Shown here in pieces: positions 48,095 to 49,895 of a DNA stretch of 64,000 nucleotides. The notes below the pieces were generated by a model. That model saw only the letters and a list, made by a program, of their open reading frames with translations. It did no database searches and had not been told where the DNA came from. Position numbers and translations under genes: made by a program. Each line of letters starts with the position of its first letter. Position 1 is the stretch's first letter. Source of the stretch: Candidatus Schekmanbacteria bacterium RIFCSPLOWO2_02_FULL_38_14 (lineage in GTDB: Bacteria > Schekmanbacteria > GWA2-38-11); contig MGDH01000008.1 of the NCBI GenBank assembly GCA_001790855.1, forward strand, positions 1 to 64,000, in the 5' to 3' direction.

Positions 48095-48952
48095 TCAATC
48101 AGCTAAGTTTCTCAGCATTACATCTGTCTCAAGCCTTGTCCTGTGATAATTTAATTCGTTTGATGGATAAGGGATTCCTGTGTCATAATTTCCTGAGCTT
48201 GTATATCCCTTTTCGGTTTTTGATGTTCTGCCTACAAGAAGTATGCCAATACTTCTTATTTGTGTTGTGTCAAGAAGGTTGACTCCTGTATATGGCGATG
48301 GCAATGGATCTGGAATACTAACATTGCTCCCATCGTAATATTTAAACTGGAGATAATCCAAGTTATTGCAAACCGGGTCATTGCCACCTCCATCTATTTC
48401 CCTTGTGAGTTCCTTGTCAGTGGTATCTATTGTATAGGTTACGGTATTGACCACATGTATTGTGCTACCTGCTGGATATGTACTTGACAGAGCTGAGGTT
48501 ACGGTTAAAGACCCTGTGGCTGTACTAGAGATAGTAGCTTGGCTCCATTTCGCTCCATCAGTTATATAAATTGTCTTACCGATTCCAAAATCCACGCTTG
48601 AATTTACAGAGAGTACTGTTCCGGATGCATAATCACTTGATAATTCTGTATGTACATCTGAGCGATTGGCTAAGAAGGTAATGGAATTTTCTGTAGCATT
48701 AGTAATTCTTATTATGGTGCTTGGAGATGTGGCAGAGGGAACACCATAACCTGTTATCCTGAGGTCTCTGCTGAGGGCGTCCGTTGCTACTCGCAAATTC
48801 TGCTGCATCTCTGTTAACTGGTCCTGAAGGTTATAGCTTTTCTGCTGATAATCAAAAAATTGATAAATAAAAACTACTAATATGCTGCTTAAAAGCACCG
48901 CTATCATCATTTCTATGAGGGTAAAACCATTTATATTTTCCCTATTAAACAT
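48095..48952 (-). CDS. pilW: PilW-like minor pilin (type IV prepilin signal)
   Basis: A 285-residue prepilin: NINGFTLIEMMIAVLLSSILVVFIYQFF carries the G-F-T-L-I-E processing site for PilD, about 8 residues from ATG 48952. The longer frame to 49033 adds 27 residues encoded by the palindromic repeat (MMNYEIASGLKSLAMTV) and is an artefact of the insertion. The C-terminal domain is beta-rich with YTIDTTDKELTREIDG. A GIY-YIG-bearing repeat separates it from pilV, so its native promoter or translational coupling may be disturbed. Confidence 0.85.
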   Translation of the reverse strand: MFNRENINGFTLIEMMIAVLLSSILVVFIYQFFDYQQKSYNLQDQLTEMQQNLRVATDALSRDLRITGYGVPSATSPSTIIRITNATENSITFLANRSDVHTELSSDYASGTVLSVNSSVDFGIGKTIYITDGAKWSQATISSTATGSLTVTSALSSTYPAGSTIHVVNTVTYTIDTTDKELTREIDGGGNDPVCNNLDYLQFKYYDGSNVSIPDPLPSPYTGVNLLDTTQIRSIGILLVGRTSKTEKGYTSSGNYDTGIPYPSNELNYHRTRLETDVMLRNLAD

Positions 48953-48986
48953 AAGGCTATTGGATGGTTTCGTTCTCGATTTTACC

Positions 48987-49452
48987 GTCATTGCGAGGGA
49001 CTTTAGTCCCGAAGCAATCTCATAATTCATCATATAAATCTTTCCATTCTGGATTCATATTTTTAATCAATCCAATTTTCTTATCTCTTGAACCTGACTT
49101 AATCTGTTTTTCTCTCAAAATAGCGTTTTCTATATCATCAAATACCTCATAATAAACCAATTTATTAACATTATATTTCTTCGTAAATCCTTGATGGATT
49201 TCTTTATTCCCTTTAGTACAATTTTTATGCTCATAAACCCTTCTTATTAAGTCATTTGTAACTCCTGTATAAAGAACCGTATTCCATTCATTAGTCATTA
49301 TATAAATGTAATATTGCTTTCCCACGAGATTACAGAATTTCTCCTGAGCCTTAAAGAATGAGATTGCGGAGCTTGTTCCGAGCAATGCGAAGGAATCTGC
49401 TCCGGGTTTGCTTCGGCTTTGCCTCGCAACCGCTTTGCTCCTCGCAATGACA
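48987..49452. mobile_element. Palindromic element carrying a GIY-YIG nuclease gene (copy 3 of TGTCATTGCGAG family)
   Basis: The left half 48987-49023 (GTCATTGCGAGG...GCAATCTCAT) and right half 49358-49452 (ATGAGATTGC...CTCGCAATGACA) are the two arms of the repeat seen gene-free at 24145-24239 and 26045-26139. The 334 bases between the inner 10-base arms replace the loop and hold the GIY-YIG gene. The right half is longer than in copies 1 and 2 and contains extra CTTCGGCTTTGCCTCGC-type sequence. The whole unit lies between pilV and pilW. Confidence 0.75.
49020..49325 (-). CDS. GIY-YIG single-domain endonuclease
   Basis: A compact nuclease of about 101 residues if GTG 49325 is the start. The open frame extends to TTG 49385, but the extra 20 residues come from repeat sequence. 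Motifs: YYIYIMTN, VLYTGVTNDLIRRVYEHK (the second YxG half with the catalytic Arg), KLVYYEVFDDIENAILREKQIK and the tail NPEWKDLYDEL. This is the UvrC-like/YhbQ-type stand-alone family. The stop codon TGA lies inside the repeat arm GCAATCTCAT. It probably cuts or nicks DNA; whether it mobilises the element is inference. Confidence 0.85.
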   Translation of the reverse strand: MGKQYYIYIMTNEWNTVLYTGVTNDLIRRVYEHKNCTKGNKEIHQGFTKKYNVNKLVYYEVFDDIENAILREKQIKSGSRDKKIGLIKNMNPEWKDLYDEL

Positions 49453-49505: not shown

Positions 49506-49895
49506 TTACTGTGCTATTGCGGTCGTTAAACTCACACTGTGCGGTGTTGTTGAGATGAAAGGTTTCATCTCATACCATGTGACAGCAACAGTTATTGTCT
49601 TCATACCTGTCTGTGGTACACCTGACGCGACTGTTGTAGTCCTTGTAAATGCATTGTTTAATCCTATATTGGTTTCTGTCTGATTGGCGATGCTATCATA
49701 GTCGGTATTTTTCAACTGCTCAATTTTTTCCTGTGCGAGGTTTGTGGCGTAGGTAATTGCTTTGCTAAAGACATTACTCTTTATAATAGCTACATTTAAT
49801 GCAAAAAAACTTAATAACCCTATTGCCAATACTATCATGGCAACCATAACTTCAATGAGAGTAAATCCACCAGCATTTTTTTTAAATTTTTTCAT
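49506..49895 (-). CDS. pilV: PilV-like minor pilin
   Basis: A 129-residue prepilin starting at ATG 49895 (GGGAG five bases upstream; the frame from GTG 49907 overlaps the upstream stop). The leader MKKFKKNAG is followed by GFTLIEVMVAMIVLAIGLLSFFALN, the PilD cleavage site and N-terminal helix of PilV-type minor pilins. The remaining 95 residues form a small beta domain. It follows the GspH/FimT-like gene by 2 bases and was originally next to pilW, before the palindromic element arrived. Confidence 0.85.
   Translation of the reverse strand: MKKFKKNAGGFTLIEVMVAMIVLAIGLLSFFALNVAIIKSNVFSKAITYATNLAQEKIEQLKNTDYDSIANQTETNIGLNNAFTRTTTVASGVPQTGMKTITVAVTWYEMKPFISTTPHSVSLTTAIAQ

Follow-up and report, generated by a model that had tools for sequence, protein, structure and literature searches.

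A GIY-YIG nuclease gene between the half-arms of a CGTC-tagged palindromic repeat: a probable REP/RAYT-like element

Few non-coding sequences are as common in bacterial genomes as short palindromic repeats. The GTAG superfamily of REPs is mobilised by Y1/HUH (RAYT) transposases. Another superfamily, the CGTC-tagged REPs, was described by Di Nocera et al. in 2013 (PMC3733652) and includes CGTC-1, which is dRS3 of Neisseria, as well as RPE-4 and RPE-6 of Rickettsia. These repeats were reported to have no dedicated transposase, and the enzyme was proposed as possibly lost. Since the survey was concerned with transposases and disregarded REPs lying within hypothetical proteins shorter than 120 aa, a 95-aa gene may have escaped it. 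For the GIY-YIG superfamily, a phylogenomic study of 2006 (PMC1564403) placed small stand-alone prokaryotic proteins in the Slx1 cluster, with palindromes unmentioned, and Penelope-like retroelements are described there as a mobile element using a GIY-YIG nuclease.

Here we describe a locus that joins both subjects. The most likely explanation is a CGTC-tagged, REP/RAYT-like element with a GIY-YIG nuclease instead of an HUH transposase, of which positions 48986-49452 would represent the gene-bearing, probably autonomous form. In this same likely reading, a single-domain nuclease of 95-100 aa recognises its two half-palindromes, and the dozens of gene-free dimers are non-autonomous relatives. 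In the open-access texts searched, we found no paper joining GIY-YIG with dRS3, REP, RAYT or REPIN, and the letters of the repeat gave only primer-like matches in unrelated papers. The repeats and the nuclease superfamily are known; the link between both appears to be new.

The element, its gene and its relatives in the source genome

The window, that is the whole stretch of 64,000 nucleotides analysed, comes from Candidatus Schekmanbacteria bacterium RIFCSPLOWO2_02_FULL_38_14 (contig MGDH01000008.1). With at most one mismatch, TGTCATTGCGAG matches six times in the window, compared with 0.16 expected in shuffles, and the matches form three inverted pairs of YGTCATTGCGAG. Two of the pairs are gene-free and the third encloses a GIY-YIG frame (Table 1); the tags are CGTC or TGTC. 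A sequence-only reading had claimed a GIY-YIG frame between the arms of a palindromic repeat, its stop inside an arm, and two gene-free copies elsewhere. Direct reading of the letters confirmed all of this; the stop codon, TGA, runs into the final two bases of the arm GCAATCTC at the inner end of half-arm 1. The inner arms of the occupied copy are 338 bp apart and not 334, the distance given in that reading. The open frame spans 49020-49385 with its likeliest start at the GTG at 49325. Half-arm 2 is irregular and, with 93 bp against the usual ~35, long; it is too irregular to satisfy the strict arm rule given below, and with one such arm the window copy may no longer be active. The claim that the element interrupts pilV-pilW stands for its placement between both genes, which are like the nuclease gene on the minus strand (pilV ends at 49506, pilW starts at ~48952), but neither gene is broken. 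The longest pilW frame begins with an ATG at 49033, and its additional part (48953-49033) reads through half-arm 1, so gene callers would add a false N-terminus encoded by the repeat; pilW itself probably starts at 48952.

Table 1 Features of the element and its surroundings, in positions of the window
Feature	Start	End	Strand	Remarks
pilW-like gene	48095	48952	-	Downstream of the element; bounds the insertion site
Half-arm 1	48986	49021	+	CGTC tag, ATTGC..GCAAT stem and CTC tail; 3' side of the GIY-YIG gene
GIY-YIG nuclease gene	49020	49325	-	GTG start, 101 aa; PF01541 match, E 6e-15
Half-arm 2 (inverted)	49360	49452	-	GAGATTGC ... CTCGCAATGACA; 5' side of the GIY-YIG gene
pilV-like gene	49506	49907	-	Upstream of the element; bounds the insertion site
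Gene-free dimer, same repeat (putative non-autonomous copy)	24145	24239		95 bp; ssDNA fold z = -6.6 vs shuffles
Gene-free dimer, same repeat (putative non-autonomous copy)	26045	26139		95 bp; ssDNA fold z = -6.2 vs shuffles

Pattern searches of the whole source genome (2.68 Mb, 43 contigs) found 115 half-arms of the form GTCATTGCGAG-N5..30-GCAATCTC and none for the reversed-pattern control. The sole other homologue of the gene in this genome (C38:51324-51581, 73% identical) lies between the same arms. We considered gene-free dimer loops as deletion remnants of a gene-bearing unit, which was not seen in this genome; the loops (L008, L010, L012, L014, L021 and L030) have another small palindrome in common, which resembles AGCTGTCAGCT and makes the repeats palindromes within palindromes. 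One dimer (L023, C7, ~28758) is nested in a larger palindrome, AACAGGTTGCTGAAAAAGGGTTT ... GGGTTTTTCAGCAACCTGTT, and the copies in another genome, G135 (L249-L251), are surrounded by the larger palindrome GGCGTTGTTGAATAAATAACCATGG. Such larger palindromes are possibly a preferred target. Insertion into pre-existing palindromes as a general rule was rejected: it is clear for some dimers, but only 10 of 132 exceeded the 99% shuffle threshold.

The protein matches PF01541 only, with no Y1 domain, no NUMOD-type module and no other Pfam match above cut-off. Residues Y8, Y19, G21, R29, H33 and E72 are invariant in alignments of 22 and of 40 diverse members, and the catalytic Tyr/Tyr, Arg and Glu of the GIY-YIG domain (Y8, Y19, R29, E72) are thus all kept. 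A median dN/dS of 0.08 between related copies indicates strong purifying selection, while stop codons mark 18 of 137 copies as pseudogenes. The predicted structure (pLDDT 89, pTM 0.81) has its nearest fold in the UPF0213 protein BH0048 (1zg2), followed by Slx1-Slx4 and UvrC. Slx1 is a nuclease of branched DNA, and with a model of Slx1-like fold, recognition of a folded arm by the present protein is plausible. The clade carries the signature GVTxxLxxR..EHK..GFTKKY..REKQIK. A C-terminal Asn, N91, is also invariant in both alignments; this feature was called absent from the Slx1 cluster in the 2006 phylogeny (PMC1564403), so the placement of the clade in the superfamily deserves a fresh look.

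Arms around GIY-YIG genes and their covariation with the protein

The phylum Schekmanbacteria is small, and four of its genomes were compared. Two related genomes have a homologue, and there too the gene is enclosed by inverted half-palindromes, but of other sequence, GTCATTCCCGCG..GCGGGAATCCAG. Scanning a three-protein alignment against GTDB contigs yielded 80 loci from many phyla with 51-72% identity, ranked by protein similarity and not by arms. Most of them show the same architecture in their flanks: the YGTC tag and the AT at the stem start are constant, and the continuation after AT varies (TGC, TCC, CCC, TCT, CCT, CGC and others), as in the arms GTCATTCCCGC..., GTCATCCTCGG... and GTCATTCTGAG.... 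Hence, the conserved feature is the architecture, consisting of a YGTC tag, a stem starting with AT and two inward-facing half-arms. GTC itself belonged to the search rule, and the base preceding it was T or C in 199 of the 214 arms; the first stem residues are A in 209 and T in 207 of them, both being favoured by the rule. The commonest tail is CCA (76/214), and CTC, belonging to the ATTGC type, was found in 61/214. A stem of 8-9 bp with a loop of 4-5 nt fits the ATTCCCGC-GAAA-GCGGGAAT type of the relatives (TCC/CCC types), unlike the ATTGC type of the window with its 5-bp stem and variable inner hairpin. Head-to-head dimers predominate, both among the window copies and with 132 dimers in the loci. 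The TGC type of the window is a variant of the CGTC-tagged REPs.

It had been set beforehand that homologues in relatives should have arms, and that homologues lacking these arms would speak against the idea. Arms are present, though GCAATCTC itself is often replaced by other stems; the test is thus misleading when read as one for GCAATCTC arms and holds at the level of architecture. A search of the homologue flanks for the window's own arm sequence alone was discarded as too narrow because relatives use other stems. Stem types ATGGC and ATACC were noticed around gene copies in genomes that also carry other types (L178 and L206 in G044 C22; L196 and L201 in G053), and a recognition code might be readable from such multi-type sets.

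The association between gene and arms is specific. Under the strict rule (GTCAT, an exact 3-nt continuation, its complement and ATC, inward-facing and within 150 bp), arms were found on both sides of 57 of the 82 GIY-YIG genes, compared with 6 of 287 other ORFs from these loci (p = 6e-40); among small other ORFs the count was 2 of 82. Arms just as frequent around unrelated genes, the second outcome that had been named in advance as refuting, were not seen. At a wider limit of 250 bp, one flanked "other" ORF is in fact a second GIY-YIG copy (L113). Independently of the tag, terminal inverted repeats above the 99th percentile of shuffles enclose 98/133 genes but only 6/320 control intervals. When the 80-locus set was enlarged to 137 copies by extra copies in the same genomes, plasmid records and the own phylum, both arms were recognised around 95 and at least one arm around 119; the remaining 18 had no recognisable arm. 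The five stem bases are identical between the two arms in 74 of 95 loci, where random pairing gives 23 (maximum 34 of 2000). In a second sample of 276 Gammaproteobacteria searched with a 22-row profile, both arms flank the gene in 19 and at least one arm in 23 of 29 loci, with degenerate or other palindromes at several of the rest. YhbQ-like GIY-YIG paralogues, which are weak matches of the same profile, have no arms (0/9).

More than 15 bacterial phyla show this pairing of nuclease family and repeat type; in phage records no homologue was found. Homologues occur in several of the CGTC genera named by Di Nocera et al. (2013), namely Neisseria, Sinorhizobium, Azospirillum, Novosphingobium and Bradyrhizobium. 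The copy in N. gonorrhoeae is located among dRS3 dimers and not simply inside one, and around the copy of Rhizobium K1/93 no arms were recognised. A complete Cytophagaceae genome (G040 C1:2098320-2099224, L202) holds two equal-scoring GIY-YIG copies in tandem, 620 bp apart.

Arms and proteins have evolved in a matched manner. On the protein tree of 118 rows, stem type requires 16 changes versus 28 in shuffles (minimum 24 of 300), and the nearest protein from another phylum shares the stem type in 43 of 62 cases (permuted mean 19, maximum 32). Due to the weak resolution of the tree (94 columns, 8 starred branches), the claim of covariation rests on these counts and not on single branches. Genomes with multiple copies contain different arms around different proteins, e.g. 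ATTGC together with ATTCC in one genome each of Omnitrophota, Planctomycetota and Chloroflexota, which a mere local repeat background cannot explain.

The number of repeats follows the gene as well. Among the 276 Gammaproteobacteria, at least five GTCATYCC..GGRATCC repeats were found in 38 of 59 gene-positive versus 26 of 217 gene-negative genomes (p = 4e-15). Of these 26, 12 have at least 20 repeats, so repeats persist or arise without the gene. Across 50 genomes, the median number of ATTGC repeats is 40 with and 6 without ATTGC-type genes, and for ATTCC repeats it is 12 with and 0 without ATTCC-type genes.

Occupied and empty sites, and the competing explanations

Empty sites at orthologous loci, another check fixed in advance, were found at two places. 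The gap between pilV and pilW measures 553 bp in the source genome, 65 bp in a genome of the same family (G001) and ~9 bp in two others (G002, G003), and no element lies there in these three. In Azospirillum lipoferum 4B, sufB-sufC is occupied by dimer, gene and dimer, whereas A. ramasamyi, A. oryzae and sp. B510, ~96% identical around the site, have a short spacer only. On Sphingobium plasmids, the unit occupies the spacer between fnrL and a regulator gene in seven records; TYG64 and TYG74 have a fused palindrome there, resembling what a deletion between the arms would leave, and other sequence is present in TYG72 and TYG65. Recent copies were seen in G135, where three copies are 95-96% identical over ~360-400 bp in different surroundings; their homology has a common right end at the GTC tag and varying left ends. 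Presence and absence at orthologous sites together with near-identical copies at different sites is a feature of mobile elements, and the neighbourhood of the gene differs in every genome examined. A target-site duplication of fixed length was not detected, as none of the lengths k = 3-9 was enriched at the tag border of 128 dimers; 2-bp repeats are in slight excess at one offset.

How far can these observations be explained otherwise? REPs are common between genes, and small genes could therefore often be flanked by chance, as is the case for trpC of the source genome (C8:74103-75195, L028), which we tried as cargo and rejected as chance background because two separate repeat units ~1 kb apart flank it. 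The rarity of arms on both sides of other ORFs, small ones included, the pairing of arms with the same stem and their covariation with the protein tree leave this explanation next to no credit. Nearly as improbable is a host-serving nuclease that trims or resolves REP cruciforms for genome maintenance and is kept by the REPs for regulation and not for mobility. It would agree with Slx1, a branched-DNA nuclease, being among the nearest folds and with the strong purifying selection. However, the distribution is patchy (59/276 Gammaproteobacteria), single genomes contain several divergent copies with different arms, pseudogenes occur, and there is no fixed gene neighbourhood while sites are occupied or empty; due to these properties the unit looks like a selfish element. 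We also regard it as quite doubtful that Y1/HUH (RAYT-like) transposases spread the repeats in trans with the GIY-YIG gene as passenger or hairpin resolvase. GTAG REPs are mobilised in this way, and in Gammaproteobacteria the presence of Y1 genes does correlate with CGTC repeats (54/172 vs 10/104). However, the GIY-YIG effect holds within Y1-positive genomes (32/44 vs 22/128), and the arm stem tracks the GIY-YIG protein tree. In addition, none of 20 Y1/HUH genes from repeat-carrying genomes is flanked on both sides even within 500 bp, compared with 94/123 GIY-YIG genes, in agreement with the statement of the 2013 survey (PMC3733652). The Y1 correlation (G043, G054-G328) stands beside this result.

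The main rival is a free-standing homing-type GIY-YIG nuclease that cut the loop of gene-free dimers of its own type and was copied in by repair, the repeats having spread otherwise. Homing nucleases of the GIY-YIG type are known, the gene occupies precisely the loop and often abuts an arm (downstream arm at most 10 bp from the last codon in 38 of 108), and the loops of gene-free dimers are not remnants of a gene-bearing unit. A nuclease targeting repeats would likewise co-occur with them and track their stem type, so the same covariation is predicted. This rival is disfavoured mainly by units that carried their arms to repeat-free sites: close relatives have no dimer at pilV-pilW or sufB-sufC, so the arms arrived together with the gene or shortly before. 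Likewise, the two genuine arm copies in genome G111 are the gene's own, which argues for a unit bringing its arms along. The protein is moreover a bare domain lacking NUMOD-like modules, and the Azospirillum gene is situated between two complete dimers and not in a loop. A homing-type nuclease that colonised the repeat, the second alternative of the sequence-only reading, is thus unlikely, and less likely than its first, a REP/RAYT analogue with a GIY-YIG nuclease, which the survey of homologues and its controls support.

Some findings count against the REP/RAYT-like explanation, namely the absence of a target-site duplication of fixed length, the varying left end of the G135 copies, the 18 copies among 137 with no recognisable arm, the repeats in gene-negative genomes, the Y1 correlation, the gene-free dimer loops that do not resemble deletion remnants, and the irregular arm of the window copy. 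From the evidence given above we infer that the GIY-YIG protein cuts and mobilises the element. We hypothesize that it binds a half-arm folded into a hairpin or cruciform, recognising the tag and the stem type, and that it would cut beside the GTC tag, whether within the element, in a structured target or in both. Host repair might subsequently copy the element into the break, by annealing or gene conversion into the nicked or broken structured site. GIY-YIG enzymes act by hydrolysing DNA, and strand joining is not known for them, so copying by host repair would be expected rather than direct strand transfer. Loosely consistent with repair copying are the missing target-site duplication and the dimers that occasionally lie nested in other palindromes.

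Implications and relation to known systems

Our findings suggest that a GIY-YIG nuclease is the missing enzyme spreading a very common class of bacterial repeats. With somewhat less assurance than for the element itself, we favour the view that the proteins of this clade are the enzymes dedicated to mobilising the CGTC-tagged REP superfamily, dRS3-like repeats among them, and that each protein is matched to a stem type. If true, more than 15 phyla would harbour a class of prokaryotic mobile DNA that has palindromic ends and relies on a hydrolytic GIY-YIG nuclease as its single enzyme, differing in mechanism from DDE, HUH and tyrosine/serine recombinase elements; should the nuclease prove to be the sole mobilising enzyme, this type of element would deserve its own class. 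While RAYT is known as the enzyme of the GTAG superfamily, the corresponding question for the CGTC superfamily becomes directly testable. A role would be assigned to a large clade now named only "GIY-YIG nuclease family protein", and its naturally matched nuclease-hairpin sets could be used to study how a 95-aa enzyme reads folded DNA.

Among the known systems, the CGTC-tagged REPs share with the present repeats the YGTC tag, the AT stem start, a CCA-like tail, head-to-head dimers, high copy number and a wide, patchy distribution. They differ in that no dedicated transposase was described for them, whereas a GIY-YIG gene lies between the units here (95 of 137 copies flanked), and in that the short stem of the window's ATTGC type is broken by a variable inner hairpin in contrast to their stem of 8-9 bp. 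The GTAG REP/RAYT systems (REPtrons, REPINs; TnpA-REP of the IS200/IS605 superfamily) resemble the element by short tagged palindromes, by dimers as non-autonomous units and by a single enzyme gene flanked by the same, type-matched palindromes, mobilisation being putative here; their enzyme is a Y1/HUH transposase, to which the GIY-YIG nuclease is unrelated, and their tag is GTAG instead of CGTC. With GIY-YIG homing endonucleases (I-TevI, I-BmoI and free-standing relatives), the protein has in common the catalytic domain and, by inference, a selfish spread by DNA cutting. However, it lacks NUMOD-type binding modules, occupies neither an intron nor a single conserved allelic site, and has inverted arms of its own that travel with the gene. 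Slx1-like stand-alone proteins (UPF0213/YhbQ, BH0048 1zg2) provide the closest solved fold, a single domain of ~95 aa, but YhbQ-like paralogues in the same genomes are armless and the present clade has its own signature. Compared with Penelope-like retroelements, the unit is bacterial, has no reverse transcriptase and measures ~450 bp as a whole. It differs from DDE-type IS and MITE in showing no target-site duplication of fixed length.
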